Assembly (NCBI GenBank): GCA_020091685.1
Contig: CM034599.1
Span: 28,409,920-28,473,919, forward strand
DNA length: 64,000 nucleotides
Direction of reading: 5' to 3'
From: Lutjanus erythropterus
Lineage: Eukaryota > Chordata > Actinopteri > Lutjaniformes > Lutjanidae
The position numbers were made by a program, and so were the translations under genes. Positions 8,565-62,084 of this stretch are shown in pieces. Each line of letters opens with the position of its first letter. The stretch's first letter is position 1. Below the pieces are notes generated by a model, which saw only the letters and a list, made by a program, of their open reading frames with translations, did not search any database and was not told the DNA's origin.

Positions 8565-11500
8565 TTACTTGGTTGACATGCGCATGACATGTTTGACCAT
8601 ATTTCCAATACCATCAAATATATAGTGATAGTGATACTCAGTTTCCCACATGAAGGTTGGGGTGCTGACCACTTTGTTCTTCTCGTCCACATAGGCTTCG
8701 TGAAAGAAAGGGTTAAGGTCAAAGCAGGAGTTATTTCAGAACAAAAAGCAACAATAAAATGTGTATACTTAGCCAACTAACACTGATAGAAAGTACAGAA
8801 GCCCCGAGAAGCATGTGAGAAAAATTTTTTTGGTGATCCAGTCTAATCTAAATTGTGTTTTTGACTGTACCAGTAGAGAACCTGCCCTTTGCCTGTATTT
8901 CTTATTATTTTGCTGTGCTCAGGATGTTTATCAGCCCAAAACATCAGTATTTGACATCCTGGGAATACAAATTATCTTTCTGCTGCATTTACAAACAGCG
9001 TGTGGTCAAAAAGGAGTTTTGCCAGGAGATTTTATTTTATTTTATCTTATCCGTTGTTTGTTGTGTTGCCAAAAGAGGCTGAAATGTGTGGAGTCATAAG
9101 AGTGCCATAAAAAATAATAAATCTGTAAAATAATGAGAAAATAAATGTGGAGATATAAAGACAAATAAAAAACATTTTAAAATATTATAAACATTTTGCT
9201 TTCACATTTCTTTGTTAATTCATGTCTTTAAATTCTATTTTTCTAAATATATTTATTATTTGCATATTAATTAATTCAAGATTTTTAGTTCATTTTTTAA
9301 TGTTGTTTAATGTTGTTTCCCTATAGCGTTTGCTTTTTCCTATTGTTTTTTTTTATTCCTTGAAGGGCCAAGCTTTCAGTGAGTGGTCAGTTCCTACAAA
9401 ACAATAGAAAAAATACTAAAAAAATAAATAAATAAGGGGTACAAATACATTACTGACATTACATAAAAAATAAATTAAAGAAAGAATGATTATCCTGGCA
9501 AAAAAAAATATTTAAATCAGACTTAAAAAATGGATCACCAGAATTGTTTTTCCTCACTTCCTGTCATAAAGAAACAGACCTTAGAAAGGATATATATGGC
9601 TCACGGCCGTGGTGGCGAGCGCCCATGTTCTTGACAGCCTGCACCATGTTTGTGTGAGGCCAGTTTCCCCAGCGAGTGTTGTCGTCCCGCTCGTAGCCCA
9701 TGGTCACCTCGATGTTGGGCAGCACGCGGCAGGCCAGCACTGGAGCCATGCTGGCCAGTCTGAAACCAGAGCAAACAGTCAGATGAGGTTTTTATTAAGT
9801 CAAGATTAAGAGACGACACTGATCTCAGGGTGTGGGAATAATTGCCTTACCTGTACTACACAGGAGAGAGTCAGAGGCTGAAAGAAAGGATTTCCCAGCA
9901 TAAAACACTGGGGCAGCAGTGTGACACTCAGTCTTCACAGTGTGTACTTGTAGATCTACTATTACTGACCAAATGGTGAGCATGAGGCAGGATTACAGAT
10001 CGTCAGCTGTTTATTAACACCATTTTCCAATAAATTAAACTATGGGAGAATATGCAACAGTTCTGGAAAGACAACATCCCTGTTTTTAAACAAAAATGTA
10101 GTCCATTACAGGTAACACTCACCTGTACGTGAAATTTTGTGAATATTTCTAGGATCCTACAGACTCAAATTTAATTTTCAGTGTAGTTCAAATCAATAGA
10201 ATCCCACTAAATGTACCTGGTACTTGACATAACTACTGTTTCACTGGCAAAAAGACAGTTCACCTGAAAATCAAAAACACACATTTTTTTCTCTCACCTG
10301 TACTGCTATTTATCCATCTAGATAGTTAGGAGATATTGGACGTAGAGATTTCTGCCTTCGCTCCAGTATAATGAAACTTCGTAGCACTTGTCTTGCATTT
10401 GAAAAACTCAACAGCAATTGAAATGGACACTTTTTATTGTTTGTTTTGTTGTTTTTATTGTTGTTTGTTATATTGCTCTGCCCAAAGGCACCAGACTCCA
10501 TTGACAAAAACAGTAAATTTACCTCTCAGAACATGGGAGTAATGGGTTTAGCGCTGCCTTGATCAGTTGGTTTGTTGGCATAAGCTGGATCCAAACTGTG
10601 TTAAAACACCAAACTCGCACAATAACACAAACTAACTGACTGGTTGAGGCAGCGGTACACCAGCAATAACTTTCATGTTCTGAGATGTAAAATTATTGTT
10701 TTTGTCAGTGGAGTCTGGTGACTTTGAACAGAGCAGCAGACTAGCCGTTTCTGTTCTGGAGGAATCCTTTCCATAATGTTGTCAGCAATAAAGAAGAGAA
10801 TCTGTGGCAAACAAACACTTTCAGTGGACGCACATTGACATATTCTACAAATATGGTCAGTAAAGGCTGCTCACTGTCACTAGTTTATGCTCTCTGTTCC
10901 ATTTAAGTTTCTTGCTCATATGTTATAGTAAGTACCTCAGTTCCAAAAACATTGGGACACTGGGTACAAAGTAAATTAATGAGTCCATATTTTGTTTTCA
11001 GAAATCATGGACATTGTGTCCTCTGGACTAAAGAGGAAAATGACAATCTAGACTGTTAAATCTGTGAAGGCCCCATTAATGCTGAAAGGTACATACAGGT
11101 TTTGCAGCAACATGCTGCTCTAGACAGGGTGTTTTTCAGAGACATCCCCACTTCTTTCAGCAAGATAATGCCAAGACACTTTCTGCATGTGTGGCTTCAT
11201 AGTAAAAGAGTTCAGGTATTATACTGGCCCGCCTGGAGTCTAGGCATTTAACCCTTACACCCTTTTAACCCTTTAAAACAGCAATAACACAAACAAACAG
11301 ATCAAGGCAGCAGAAGGCCAGCTCCTGTGATCTGCGAGGGAAAATGAAAAATGCCAAAGGAGAGGGATATTATGCTTATATAATGGTTTCCCATTAGAAA
11401 AGGTTGTCTGACAGCAAGATGAAGCAGTGAAAATATTCTAGATGTGGCTTACATTTAAACTGATATTGATTTTTTTTGTTTTTTTTAGGTGGCAGCTGAC

Positions 11501-14500
11501 CCTGTACTCAGTACTTGGCTTAGTATCTGTGCTGGTTCTCCCACTGCGTCTTCAAACTTCCAGCGCATGTCAACTGCCATCTACTGTAGGTAATATACTG
11601 ACCTCATACAATCCCACATTCAAAAAGTCCCGAACTATCCCTTTAAGCCTGTGCTCTCATGGTGACAGCTGCTTCATCCTCTTCTTCCTCCACTCTTTAA
11701 TTAGTGTCTCCTGGCCCTGTGACCTGTTGCCCATCATCACCCTGTCAGTCCACGCATGCCAAAGGATCAGTCACTCTCACCAGGTGATCACATACAGTAC
11801 GTCACTCTGTCCTGTCTGTGCTGACCCTCCTGCCTGACCTCACCTGCTCCTCCTGCTGTGTCAGTGAGTGGAGACTTTCACCAGACACACTCCTAAACAT
11901 AAGGAAACCCATTTCTGCCAGTGAAAGAAAAAAAAATATCCCCATAGTAAGTCAGACTTATGAGATTTTAAAAAGTCTGAATTATTAGATAATAATAAAA
12001 AATAGACTTTTTATCTCATAATTTTGACCTTTTATCTCATAATGAAATTATGACCTGTTGACCTACAAGTACAAAAGTTTTTTTCTCTTTGATATTTTAA
12101 TTCAAGTTCAAGGTCAAGTTTATTTAATTACTCTTGTCCTGTTATAACAATGTATTTTCATGTTATTACAACATACAAATTGATCACATTATAACATGAA
12201 ACATTTCATGTTATACTAGGATAAATTGTATCTTGGCAGTAAAGTGTATCTTTGGCAGAAACAGACTTCCGTAATAAAGAGCTCAGTATTCACTGTCTGA
12301 CTCTTTTCCTTTCCAATGTCCCAATTCCATTACAGGGATCGTTTAAATCTTGTGTGTTTATCTAGCCTGGTGTAATCGAACGTAATCTGATTTAAAGTGG
12401 GGTATCAGTGGCAGTTTGCATTTTTGTATCCTCTTGTTTGGATTTAAAATGTGAATTTTAAGTGATTGTACAGCTAAAAAAGAACTCCCTAGTGTCACAC
12501 ACTGCTGCTCTTATATTTTAACCTTATGATTGTACAACCCCAGTTCCCAGAAAGTTGGGACATTGTGTAAATGTGAATAAAAACAGAATTCAATGGTTAG
12601 CAAATAATTTTTGTTTTGACTTGCATTCAGTTGAACACAGTACAAAGACAAGATGTTTAATGTTCAAACCGATAACTGACTTGATTGTTTTTTGTAAATA
12701 CACAATCATTCTGAATTTGATGCCTGCAACACCACGCTCAAAGTGTGCTGTGGTCTGACAAGTCAAATTGTTTTCAGAAATCATGGATTGTGTGCTCCAG
12801 GCTAAAGAGTAAAAAGGAACATTCAGATTGTTACCAGCACAAAGGTCAAAAGCCTGCATCTGTGATGGTATGGGGGTGTGTTAGTGCCCATGGCATCATG
12901 GGTAACTGTCACATCTGTGAAGGCCCCATTAATGCTGTAAGGTAGATACAGGTTTTGGAGCAACATATGCTGCCATCCAGACGTCTTCTTCAGAGACGTC
13001 CCTGCATGTGTTACAACAGTGTGGGTACATAGTAAAAGAGTTCGGGTACTAGACTGACCTGCCTGCAGTGCAGTCCTGTCTCCTATTGAAAATGTGTGGT
13101 GCATTATGAAGCACAAAATACAACAACAGAGACTTGATCTGTTGAGCACCTGAATTTGTCAATTCAACAAGAATGAAAAAAAAAGTCTCTTCCAAACTGG
13201 TCTCAACCTTTTTGGAACATGTTGCAGGCATCAGTTTAGGAATAAGTGTTGAAAAGCTTTTTGCAAATCATTGCATTCTGTTTTTATTTACATTTTACAC
13301 AACACTGTCGCAACTTTTTGGGGTTGTGGTTTGTACATAGGTAGAGTTATACAGTGTTGCTCCCTCAGTAATGATGGATTAAATAATAACCAGATGATAC
13401 ATACCCAATAGGCTTGCGGGAACGATGGAAATCTTTAAGCACCCTTTCCACGTCATTGTGCAGCTTGCAGTCTTTGCCATCCTTCACAAAAGAGGATCTA
13501 AAGAGTTGAGAGTTACATGGTAATATTAGGGCTTCATCTTCATCATGTCAGTTTATATTGCATGTCATGTTACGTTGTTTGACACAGCACAGTCTCAAAG
13601 TGTTTACATCATATTTCACTCTCCCTCACAGGTTCTTGGTGATGCCGTGGCCTCCAGGGAAGATGACAGCATCAAAGCTGTTGACATCCAGTTTGGACAG
13701 GTCCTGCATCTGCATCATCCCCTGACCATGGCTGAAGCGAGCCGCCTCCATCATCATGTTCCTATGTAACGGCCAGAAATAATCATAAATACTGTCTTAT
13801 GGAATTAGTCAAGTCAGGTGTATGAGCATCCAAAGTTAAATTGGACCCCTATGTGACCCTGATCCATCTGAAAGTGCAGCAGTGTTTGCAGACAGGCCTA
13901 CCGGTTCTCTCCAGAGGACGGCTGCTTCCTCATGTGGTCCATCACATGCATCTGCTGCTGGTTTGGAGCAAACATCTGGAAGCGAGCACCGTTACGGCTC
14001 AGGTGGTACATGGTGCTGGAGACAGAGGTGTCATTTACTGTCTCTACATGGTGATATGTTCATTTGGAGAACCCTTTTAATATTTAATCAGTAGGACTTA
14101 CAAACAGGGATTTCGTTTCACGAGTGCAAATGACATTTCAGAATGTCAAAACTTCTAAGATAAATGTAGGATATCTGTAAAATACATCTTTTCACAAGTA
14201 GAAATGACATTTTGACAAGTCAAAACTGATTCACAGTTACGTTTGACTGAATCATATCAGTCATTTGTTTTTCACTGGTAAGAATAACAATTACAGATGT
14301 CTACAATTTAGGAATGTAACAAAATATAAAAAGTCTCAATACCATATTGGACTGTGACGATATCTACCACGATATTAGATGGTTAATTATTATTATCATC
14401 ATCACTGTTTGCAGTTCAATTCAAACATTCATTGCCAAAGACAAGTCATGTCATTTTTTTGGACATACTCGGGTAATGGCTGGCTACTTTTATTTTTTTA

Positions 14501-16466
14501 AAGAAAGGAAGCAGAATCATCAAGTTAAAAGAAGAAAAACATTTTTTTACAAACAGAAAATGGTGTGCCATCATATTTATTAATAATAAAAGTTGTCATT
14601 TTCCCGTTTTTAATATTGCAATAAATATCGTATCATGTACATTTTTTTATTATGGTATTGTACCTTGAAGTTTTGGTACCGTTAGATCTCTACTCTAATT
14701 AAATTTCCATGAATTGAAAAAGGATTGTGTTTAATCAGATATCAACAAGTGATTTCCTATATGCCTAACAGATCAACATACCATTTCAGATATGTCGCCC
14801 TTAATAGCATATTCATTTTGGATTAGCTGGGCTTGTTGGAAGGTTTATAAGATATAATTTCAGATTCACAAAATCCAATTACATATATCTGTATGCTGAT
14901 ATACTTGCTGGTAATAATTCCAAGCCGATGTATCAATACTTAAAATTTGACTTTTGAGAACTAAATTTTAGATATGTAGAATTCTGTTTATGATATTTGT
15001 AATGTAGGAACAAATGTAGACATCTACAATGTACATTGTCACAAGTAGGAAATGCATTGTTGGTATCAACTATTGACATTTCCACTATTGATTTGTTATC
15101 AATAATTAGCATTTTGACATGTTAATACTTTGGCATTGTGATATGTAGACTTGGAATTATAACATGTATAACATCAAGATTTAATTATAGTTACCTGAAA
15201 TTACGTTACAATAGATGTCAATGGTAAAAGTTAACTAGTTGTAATTAACTGACATATCTACAACTGACATTTCTACTATAATGTCTAAATTTCAGTTCTG
15301 ATTAGTTATAAACGGTATTTTAGGTATCTCAAATATAAGTGTTACTGGTATTTTCAGATACCTGAAATGCAATTCTAGATTGGCTATCTCAAATTACATT
15401 CTTACTGGTTACAAGCTGACATATCAGTAACTGAATTTTGAATAAAAAACAATTGATTTATTTTATCACTACTGATTACATGTTAAAATTAGACATGTAA
15501 CAAGACCAAAAATTCACAATACGATATTTATTGCAATATTAAAATCAAAGAAAAATGACAACTAAAAAAGTCCTGTATCAAATGATAAATCTGATGTGAA
15601 TTTTCCTTTTAACTAAACAGTGCTTTTGCTTTCTGTCTTCAATAAAATAAAAGAAGCAATCCATGACAGAAGCATGTGCAAACAATTGGCATAAAATGTC
15701 ATTAATGTTTGACTTATGTATGTACAACTGCAAAACAAAAACAATGCAGCAGTCCATAACAGTCCTTTTACAAAATAAAAATAACCATGTGTAGAGCAGC
15801 CTGGCACAGTATCAAGACTTTGTTAAATTAATATCTAACATATTGTTGCATCCCTAGTTTAAAAAAACTTGTCATGTTCATGCAATGATGTAAAAATTCC
15901 TGTTCTTAGCTCAGCAGGAATGATACTCACTAAACTCCCTCATGGACATCAGTCCCATCCCACCAGCCACATCCTGAGAAAACCTGCAATACATCATGAT
16001 TTACACATCACAATAATGCCACCACTAATAATTTGTCTATTCTTCTTCACTAGTTTAAATTATGGAAAAGTATTAGAGCCAAGCATTAGGAAAAAATAAA
16101 TCAGAAGACGAAGATTTATAATTCCTTTTTTTATTTTTAAAATGAAGTTGGAAGTGCTGAGAATAAGTTTTATATACCATTTAAAAATAAAATACATTAA
16201 ATATTCTTTCTTATGACTGGCGCTGATAGTGAAAGTTCAACTTTGCATTTCAACTTTTTTTTAAATGTGAAATTAAAATAAATTCCTCCTCCTCTCATCT
16301 TTCCCCTCGCCCTAATAGTTTCCCATACATAGTGATATGTTTCACTTACCACTGCAATATTGGTGTTCCCCCAGTTGCCATAGTCACCATGGTGAACAAA
16401 GCAGGCAGGCTGGCGAGAAAGCACAGCCAGGGTTTGTTTTGACAGCAAAGTCCTGGTTGCCAGCAT
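8565..16466 (-). CDS. es1: ES1 protein, mitochondrial (GATD3/C21orf33 family)
   Basis: Seven coding exons join in frame: 16350-16466, 15931-15983, 13902-14015, 13630-13761, 13405-13497, 9594-9759 and 8565-8699, giving 269 aa. The Arg-rich start ([10 protein letters not shown]) looks like a mitochondrial presequence. The family has a glutamine-amidotransferase-like (DJ-1/PfpI) fold; the FPGGHG loop is at about 129-134. The usual nucleophile elbow (GLCC...P in human GATD3) reads GLASMAP at 170-176, so the catalytic Cys is absent, which I recall is also the case in zebrafish ES1. ES1 is known from fish photoreceptor mitochondria; its activity is unclear. Introns 1-5 are GT-AG and intron 6 is AT-AC. 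Intron 5 (9760-13404) holds two Tc1-like relics. The start is the only in-frame ATG with a targeting sequence. Confidence 0.93.
8700..9593 (-). other. es1: AT-AC U12-type intron (es1 intron 6)
   Basis: On the minus strand the intron begins ATATCCTTTCT right after codon TAT (GREPY) and ends TTTCAC right before GAAGCC ([10 protein letters not shown]). The start fits the U12 5' splice site consensus ATATCCTT. A branch-site match, CCTTAAC, sits about 13 nt before the AC end. No GT-AG choice keeps the conserved REPYEAYVDE reading, and this choice gives phase 0 on both sides. Confidence 0.92.
10250..10420. repeat. Fragment of the GTTCACC-ended fish repeat
   Basis: It matches the left end of the larger element at 50862: AGTTCACC, then a TATTTATCCATCTAGAT word, then AGTATAATGAA. 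The right part is missing. Confidence 0.45.
10530..10745. repeat. Foldback repeat fragment, central hairpin
   Basis: It contains the family's middle palindrome (GCCTTGATCAGTTGG ... CACAATAACACAAACTAAC ... GAGGCAGCGGT). Both outer ends are lost or rearranged. Confidence 0.4.
10931..11255 (+). mobile_element. Degraded Tc1/mariner-like element, copy 1
   Basis: The left side resembles a TIR (AGTTCCAAAAACATTGGGACAC). The interior matches the copy at 12533, with words for ICEGPIN, the HML block and the DxxFxRDIP area. Several stops and frameshifts are present, so it is a dead relic within es1 intron 5. Confidence 0.5.
11260..11645. repeat. Foldback repeat, right-arm fragment
   Basis: AACACAAACAAACAGATCAAGGCAG is followed by the arm sequence and ends at CCCGAACTATCCCTTTAA, the family's right terminus. 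The left arm is missing. Confidence 0.45.
12533..13343 (+). mobile_element. Internally deleted Tc1/mariner-like transposon, copy 2
   Basis: Inverted ends are clear: ACAACCCCAGTTCCCAGAA ... at the left and CAACTTTTTGGGGTTGTGG at the right, followed inward by GTAAAT...AAAACAGAAT and its complement. The interior codes broken Tc1 transposase words, including [15 protein letters not shown] and HICEGPINA. Stops and deletions prevent function. It lies in es1 intron 5. Confidence 0.65.
14100..15480. repeat. Degenerate repeat block in es1 intron 2
   Basis: Short, diverged units recur, such as ACATATCAGTAACTGAATTTTGA, GATACCTGAAATGCAATTCTAGAT and GAAATGACATTTTGACAAGTC, in both orientations. A separate ACGATATC-type repeat is nested at about 14308-14690. 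No ORF persists. It looks like an old satellite-like or MITE-derived block. Confidence 0.4.
15495..15858. repeat. Dispersed GATGCAACA-type repeat
   Basis: It begins ACATGTAACAAGACCAAAAATTC and ends ATTGTTGCATCCCTAG, roughly inverted. The same family recurs near 14308, 54250 and 55780. It has no ORF. Confidence 0.4.
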
Positions 16467-18441: not shown

Positions 18442-20427
<1,986 letters not shown>

Positions 20428-60200: not shown

Positions 60201-62084
60201 CTGAAAGTAGTTGCCAACTATTTTGATAACCCATTAATCAGTCATTTCAGATTTGCTGTTTTTCTTTGTCATTTATGACAGTAAATGAAGAGTCTTTGTG
60301 TTTTGGACTTTTGGTTGGACAAAAGACGCTATTTGAAGACGTCATTTTGGGCTCTGGGAAATAATGATTTCTCACATTTTTTGACCTTTTAGTTGCAGCC
60401 CTTAACCAACTGTTATTGTTGGTGTTGTTTTGTCACCAACTAGGAGTAATCATTCATACGCCTTGATTAATAAATGGCTACATTACTGCTTAGCTTTACC
60501 CTGTTTGTTCAAAATGGCAGCAAGCAGAAATGTCCACAATATGCTGTTTACAATGTGTTGTGTAGAGCTGCAACAATTGATCAATTATGAAATGATCATT
60601 AAATCAATCACCTAATATTTTGATAATCAAGTAGTCAATTTAAGTCATGTTTTAAAAAAAGAAAAGTCAAAATACTCTGATTCCTCCTTCTTAAATGAGA
60701 ATATTTTCTGGTTTCCTCAGTCCTTTATGACAGCAAAGTTAACATCTTTGGGTTACGGGCAAACCAAGACATTTGAAGAAGTCACCTTGGCTTTGAAGAA
60801 ACACTTTTCAACATTGTTCACCATGTCCTGGCATTTAAGAACTAATCGATTAACAAATAATGAAAATAACCAGTTGAAGCTCTTGTGTGATATAAAAATA
60901 CTATACAACTCACAGGGCAAGTCAGGGGGTTTCCAGCACAGGGCAGATTAACAGTCACAAGCATTCACCACCAACTTCCTCTTCTAAAAACCCAAGCACT
61001 CAAACATAAAAAATATGAAAACTGGTCACACATGTCAACTGAGCCCAGTTTAAAGTGAAAATCTATGGCAAACAAAAGGGGAAGACTCAGATCTGGTATC
61101 AGTCGCAGGCTTAGCTCATATTTCAGGCCTTTGCTGGGCTCAAAACTACTGAGTCACACTGAAGGACAGAACAGGAAAAAGCCCACTGTTGTTCTGTTAC
61201 AAGCAGTAAATTATTCTTATTTAAGGCACACAATGTTGCAAATAATAATCAGAGGCCAAGAGAAAGGCACAGCACTGATGTTTTCTGAAATAACCCACAG
61301 TCTAGACAGTGTGGTCTCTGCTCCCTTTGTTTCTTCTTTCTTCCTTTGTCTACAATCTCTCTGCTTCCTGTTTAGAGACGGTTTTGTACTGTAGCTCCCC
61401 TTTTCTCACAGCTTTTTCATTAACAACGAAGCAATGTGAAGAACCTCGATTATATAATCACTCTTAAGCACTTAGAAACGACTTGGTGCTGCCACATAGC
61501 TCTTAAACGCCGACCCAATCTTGTTTTCTCTCTCCAAAGCCAAACTACAGGACTGGAAACACTAATTTAGGCAAAGCAGTCCTGGCAGCTCGTTTAATAT
61601 TTAACCAAATGCTCTGTAGTAATTTTAGAGGAACTCTCTCGCTCTACTTGCCCATTCGGCTTATGAATTTTCTATTTCTAGACAGGAATTAGCTGGCTTT
61701 GGTTCCCCATCCCCCAGCTCGGGGCAAATAGAAAAACAGAGACAGCAGCAACCAGGCACCAGCTCCAGCTCCCTCCCTTGTTTTTCTCCTCCTGAACCAG
61801 ACGGAGTCACGTTTAAGGGCTTGTGATATTTCCAGCCACACAAGAGGAGGAGGAAGGAGATGGTGATGGTGACAACTTGAACGACCAAATGATAAAAAGG
61901 CTTGTTTACCACACAATACCATCACGCACACACCACCTGACCTTTCAATACACCGTTAAAGGTCGCCATGACCGACCCATTCGCTTTAGTTACACACTTT
62001 TTCGTTGTTTTTACCTCGATATAAGCTTCAAAATTCATCCGTGTTAAGAAGAAGAAGAAAAAAACATTAATCCAAGATCATCAC
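57234..62084 (-). other. zfand5: zfand5 intron 1, rich in GGGCTGCAACT repeats
   Basis: No coding exon is seen. Four copies of a hAT-like repeat (AGGGCTGCAACT ... ending GTTGCAGCTCTA) lie at about 57693-58092, 59795-60105, 60175-60410 and 60545-60880. Shared words include AAAGAAACCAGAAAATATTCAC and ATGACTCAAAC. An AC microsatellite is near 58748. Confidence 0.5.

Follow-up and report, generated by a model that had tools for sequence, protein, structure and literature searches.

A probable U12-type AT-AC intron as the last coding intron of es1 in Lutjanus erythropterus

Whether one intron of an otherwise ordinary gene is handled by the minor spliceosome is the question raised by es1, a minus-strand gene (16466-8565) in the 64,000-nucleotide stretch of Lutjanus erythropterus DNA analyzed here (the window, whose positions are used throughout). 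The gene model comprises seven coding exons with a joined frame of 810 nt and a protein of 269 amino acids (Table 1). This protein passed the NCBIfam ElbB equivalog model NF008747 (208.1-208.9 bits, cut-off 180), scored below the cut-off of Pfam DJ-1_PfpI (19.8, cut-off 26.6), and matched solved bacterial structures of the ElbB/ES1 family representing four distinct sequences, the best being 5lir (E 8e-36). The gene belongs to the ElbB/GATD3 family, which the name es1, taken over from a preliminary description of this DNA, fits; a search of viral contigs for relatives returned one stretch that matched a pattern and none that encoded a relative. The same family includes zebrafish ES1, a cone mitochondrial protein (PMC4772128), and human GATD3A (PMC8935817); the human gene is called an orthologue of ES1 in the former paper, and the zebrafish gene a paralogue of GATD3A in the latter. 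Zebrafish ES1 is reported to be confined to cones and to enlarge their mitochondria, and its paralogue to be expressed in diverse tissues (PMC4772128). Introns 1-5 of es1 were all GT-AG (5/5), as the preliminary description had stated for every intron of the gene other than the sixth.

Several further features of the locus were recorded. Exon 6 carries a 12-residue insertion (9648-9683, residues 196-207) that was missing from 30/30 bacterial ElbB proteins. Intron 5 contains a stretch of about 730 nt (12569-13295) that carries 44-nt arms in inverted orientation (84% complementary), together with another pair further inside, and that resembles the relic of a terminal-inverted-repeat DNA transposon; the inverted-repeat scan of the es1 gene that returned these arms revealed nothing bearing on the intron ends. 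Upstream of es1, the minus-strand frame 18442-18882 gave a match to TMEM127 (Pfam PF20517, E 4e-16).

Table 1. Positions of the es1 coding exons, the signals assigned to intron 6, and the in-frame features around it
Feature	Position	Strand	Remarks
es1 exon 1, coding part, ATG at 16466	16350..16466	minus	
es1 exon 2	15931..15983	minus	
es1 exon 3	13902..14015	minus	
es1 exon 4	13630..13761	minus	
es1 exon 5	13405..13497	minus	
es1 exon 6	9594..9759	minus	3' end ...GREPY, codon 225, phase 0
Decoy U2-type donor GT (GTGAGC, 9604-9599)	9603..9604	minus	similarity score 69.4
Intron 6, AT-AC, U12-type signals	8700..9593	minus	894 nt, 29% GC, phase 0
Putative U12-type 5' splice site ATATCCTTTCT	9583..9593	minus	
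First in-frame stop on intron 6 retention	9564..9566	minus	234-aa product
Candidate branch site CCTTAAC	8712..8718	minus	second A to intron end = 13 nt
Putative 3' splice site AC	8700..8701	minus	
es1 exon 7 up to stop TAA	8565..8699	minus	
AG in frame with decoy donor	8696..8697	minus	product five residues shorter

The preliminary description had placed the sixth intron at 9593-8700, with the ends ATATCCTTTCT and TTTCAC, and both the coordinates and the letters proved correct. Exon 6 terminates in ...CGT GAG CCA TAT at 9594 and exon 7 opens with GAA GCC TAT at 8699; the junction cannot slide in either direction, because the last bases of exon and intron differ (T versus C), as do the first bases (A in the intron versus G in the exon). 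The U12-type consensus is RTATCCTTT at the 5' splice site and TTCCTTRAY at the branch site. The intron starts with ATATCCTTT and matched the former at 9/9 positions (9593-9585), which bears out the U12-like 5' end claimed earlier. The branch site GACCTTAAC agreed with the latter at 7/9 positions, with the core CCTTAAC exact, and its claimed spacing was likewise borne out, the second A lying 13 nt and the first A 14 nt from the intron end. The optimum from branch site to 3' end is given as 11-13 nt (PMC3584512), so the 13-nt distance in es1 falls inside it. According to the same source, U12-type introns are defined by their 5' site and branch site, and a distinct polypyrimidine tract is said to be missing from them. 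In the 18 nt before the AC of intron 6, 15/18 positions were pyrimidines, partly those of the branch site itself, compared with 9-13 for the five GT-AG acceptors. By the AT-AN test for the A-type subtype, the intron starts with AT and ends with AC. A pair of inverted arms also lies inside the intron (9017-9050 and 9470-9503, 34 nt), although at 71% complementarity it is weak.

Taken together with its position in the gene, intron 6 shares with known U12-type AT-AC minor introns the RTATCCTTT start, the AT-AC ends, the CCTTAAC at 13 nt, and the circumstance of being a single minor intron in an otherwise GT-AG gene. It differs from them in its phase 0, its pyrimidine-rich 3' stretch, and an in-frame GT-AG pair just outside its ends. 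Phase 0 is described as under-represented among U12-type introns, and 22% of the U12-type introns of zebrafish are reported to be AT-AC (PMC7367187).

The frequency of the motifs in the window indicated how far each could be due to chance. The sequence ATATCCTTTY occurred once, against 0.32 expected, and at least once in 26/100 shuffles; the 5' motif alone is therefore not rare, but its position is. Exact RTATCCTTT was present at 2 of the 128,000 positions on both strands of the window, and CCTTRAC occurred three times in the window, one of these being 13 nt before the end of intron 6. Under a dinucleotide model of the intron, the chance of finding both signals at one fixed junction was about 8e-8, rising to about 2e-5 once some 5,200 junction pairs ending in AC were allowed for. 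The other exact match to RTATCCTTT, at +47560, was discounted: no exon or coding context was recognizable by eye beside it, and its strand has a single CCTTRAC, at 60400.

The protein register across the junction was assessed by scanning exon 6 ends at 9660-9531 in combination with exon 7 starts at 8760-8641, which yielded 3,046 in-frame, stop-free junctions. Each was scored with an enterobacterial profile (80 ElbB proteins kept of 299 found) and with a broader profile built from 30 ElbB proteins, which had the highest scores in the 68 genomes, out of 299 searched, that exceeded the cut-off. Under the enterobacterial profile, the AT-AC junction reached 143.7 bits (rank 64 of 3,046), the best of nine GT-AG pairs 138.5 bits (rank 768), and the best of 12 GC-AG pairs 142.2 bits (rank 138, 1.5 bits behind AT-AC); with the broader profile, the corresponding values were 193.6 bits (rank 19 of 3,046), 185.2 bits (rank 681), and 188.2 bits (rank 275). 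In both scans, the AT-AC junction came first among all junctions with GT-AG (9 pairs), GC-AG (12), AT-AC (24), AT-AG (11), or GT-AC (20) ends, and the junctions ranked higher by protein alone (63 in the enterobacterial and 18 in the broader scan) included none with ends of those five kinds. The stretch GREPYEAYVD had the same length in 30/30 of the broader bacterial ElbB proteins, with no residue missing or added. No GT-AG pair gave the conserved protein, the best of the nine lying 5.2 and 8.4 bits lower and losing five residues. These margins in protein score are modest, and the remaining weight falls on the splice motifs.

The window's own genome (937 Mb, 444 contigs) was searched for the minor-splicing machinery. 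Genes for U6atac, U12, and U11 were found together with two U4atac matches, each exceeding its Rfam cut-off, and four matches to the CCDC84/CENATAC family, all above the cut-off, were located on one stretch of contig C9. Pairing was considered for U6atac and U12: the AAAGGA stretch in U6atac is complementary to TCCTTT in the 5' site, and the GTAAGG stretch in U12 to CCTT(A)AC in the branch site. The splice signals, the register of bacterial ElbB, and the minor snRNA genes of the genome support the reading of es1 intron 6 as a U12-type intron of the AT-AC (A-type) subtype, to which we assign a probability of about 0.93, with the use of its sites inferred from sequence. In the mechanism that we propose, U11 and then U6atac would recognize the 5' site at 9593; base pairing between U12 and CCTTAAC (8718-8712) would leave the branch A unpaired; and with the AC (8701-8700) as the 3' splice site, TAT (Y225) would be joined to GAA (E226). 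Removal by the minor spliceosome, dependence on CENATAC, and what becomes of transcripts that keep the intron are predictions of this reading. Loss of CENATAC in human cells is reported to elicit a response from 92% of A-type minor introns (PMC8280824), which makes the prediction for es1 sharper than one framed for minor splicing in general: a reduction of minor splicing, and especially of CENATAC, should lower es1 output.

The alternatives center on the GT-AG pair that encloses the intron. The preliminary description had pointed to a decoy GTGAGC near the end of exon 6; the decoy is present, with its GT at 9604-9603 rather than 9602-9603, and thus 11 nt rather than 10 nt upstream. It had also anticipated that gene finders limited to GT-AG would probably mis-end exon 6. 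Such an error is possible, but it would not be a simple mis-ending: paired with the AG at 8697-8696, the decoy shortens exon 6 by 11 nt and exon 7 by 4 nt, and since 15 nt are removed in all, the frame is kept and a protein of 264 residues results. This product still passes the ElbB model (200.3 bits, cut-off 180), and a gene finder restricted to GT-AG could yield a clean and plausible but wrong protein.

A dual use of the locus is compatible with the U12-type AT-AC reading, and we regard it as unlikely. The AT-AC sites would then serve the minor spliceosome and the GT-AG sites, 11 and 4 nt outside them, the major one, as a low-level alternative or as an escape upon failure of minor splicing. 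The nested, in-frame layout is in keeping with this, as are reports that loss of CENATAC in human cells leads to retention of A-type introns or to activation of alternative major sites (PMC8280824) and that conversion can proceed via a cryptic U2-type 5' site (PMC3584512). The layout may nevertheless be due to chance, since 62 of the 7,890 positions in the es1 gene score as donors at least as high as the decoy, and nine in-frame GT-AG pairs occur within the roughly 60 nt scanned to each side.

Exclusive use of this pair, making intron 6 an ordinary U2-type GT-AG intron (GT 9604-9603, AG 8697-8696) and the protein five residues shorter, is very improbable. The pair is in frame and stop-free, its product passes the family model as noted, and 13 of the 18 nt before the AG are pyrimidines; the donor similarity of 69.4 falls below the 73.5-88.4 of the five GT-AG donors, yet it comes near the weakest of these (73.5-73.8). 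Against this, the decoy junction lies below the AT-AC junction in both profiles by the margins given above and by 8.6 bits in the NCBIfam ElbB model; it deletes five residues from GREPYEAYVD, a loss without parallel because 30/30 of the broader bacterial ElbB proteins have the stretch at full length; and it would require both U12-type signals, the complete 5' site and the branch site, to be there by coincidence. A major-class (U2-type) AT-AC intron would require neither RTATCCTTT nor a U12-type branch core. Introns of this kind exist, with 85 in human data (PMC8280824), but the full RTATCCTTT match and the U12-type branch core at 13 nt render the reading extremely improbable for es1.

On the U12-type AT-AC reading, a failure to remove intron 6 would have a defined consequence for the protein. 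Reading past codon 225 gives nine more residues before the stop at 9566-9564, or 234 amino acids in total; translation would stop after nine intronic codons, and the last 44 residues of the protein would be missing. Considering coding introns, intron 6 is the last, so the retention stop has no known exon junction behind it and junction-dependent decay is not expected; we infer that the retained transcript may escape the ordinary form of this decay. Intron 6 also contains three AATAAA and two ATTAAA.

When the same genome was searched with the es1 protein, two further places were detected, one on contig C6 (14941816-14947987) and one on contig C8 (17883459-17883916); among the best candidates scored, there were 12 matches at E up to 1, seven of which were es1 itself. 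The ElbB family model gave eight matches, confined to C6, C8, and es1 among the best candidates scored. Neither copy has an intron at es1 codons 225/226, the last coding exon running unbroken through this point (C6 CKHVSKSVSESHVDEKNK, C8 CKHVNTDVEKAHVDVKNK), and the tblastn pieces revealed no intron in either copy at any of the six es1 intron positions. Positions 39, 56, 138, 169, and 225 of es1 lie within coding sequence in both copies. At position 94, the gap between the pieces (52 bases on C6, 4 bases on C8) is too small to accommodate an intron, a reading made by eye because the frames there are broken. The visible introns of the copies lie near es1 codons 67, 131, and 202 (exon ends by eye, approximate), at none of the es1 positions. 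By eye, the exon layout is alike in the two copies and unlike that of es1. As assembled, the broken frames mean that the copies are either pseudogenes or the product of assembly (indel) errors.

The two GATD3-like copies belong to the same protein family as es1 and carry extra residues at the same place, although fewer by eye. Extra residues common to all three and missing in 30/30 bacterial ElbB proteins speak for a common eukaryotic ancestor. Bacterial ElbB shares with es1 the register across the splice junction, without a gap in 30/30, and differs in having no introns and in lacking the 12-residue insertion (30/30). Eukaryotic GATD3A is reported to be nested within bacterial homologues (PMC8935817). 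With none of es1's six intron positions present in either GATD3-like copy, the AT-AC intron could have been gained in the es1 lineage, after the bacterial gene entered eukaryotes and es1 parted from GATD3; we put this forward tentatively and consider it doubtful. The appearance of new minor introns is described as very rare, with little evidence for their de novo creation (PMC10639083). The other reading is that an old intron was lost from the GATD3 line. Since both copies are intronless at this point, GATD3 orthologues may be the wrong genes in which to check for AT-AC ends, and es1-type orthologues would be needed.

AT-AC minor introns are a well-known class, and the less ordinary aspect of this one is that two related copies in the same genome are without an intron there. 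The literature searched, with supplementary tables and U12 intron databases outside its scope, yielded no link of es1, GATD3A, or C21orf33 to the minor spliceosome; GATD3A appears as a protein interactor in PMC10048706, which contains neither "minor spliceosome" nor "U12". Intron 6 of es1 may already be catalogued. The U12-type AT-AC reading provides a corrected model for a gene of the ES1 family, in which a GT-AG gene finder could err without a visible frame error. The absence of the intron from the GATD3-like copies makes the question of its time of origin approachable and, if the gain is true, a minor intron whose gain can be dated, in a gene that came from bacteria, would be a useful example.
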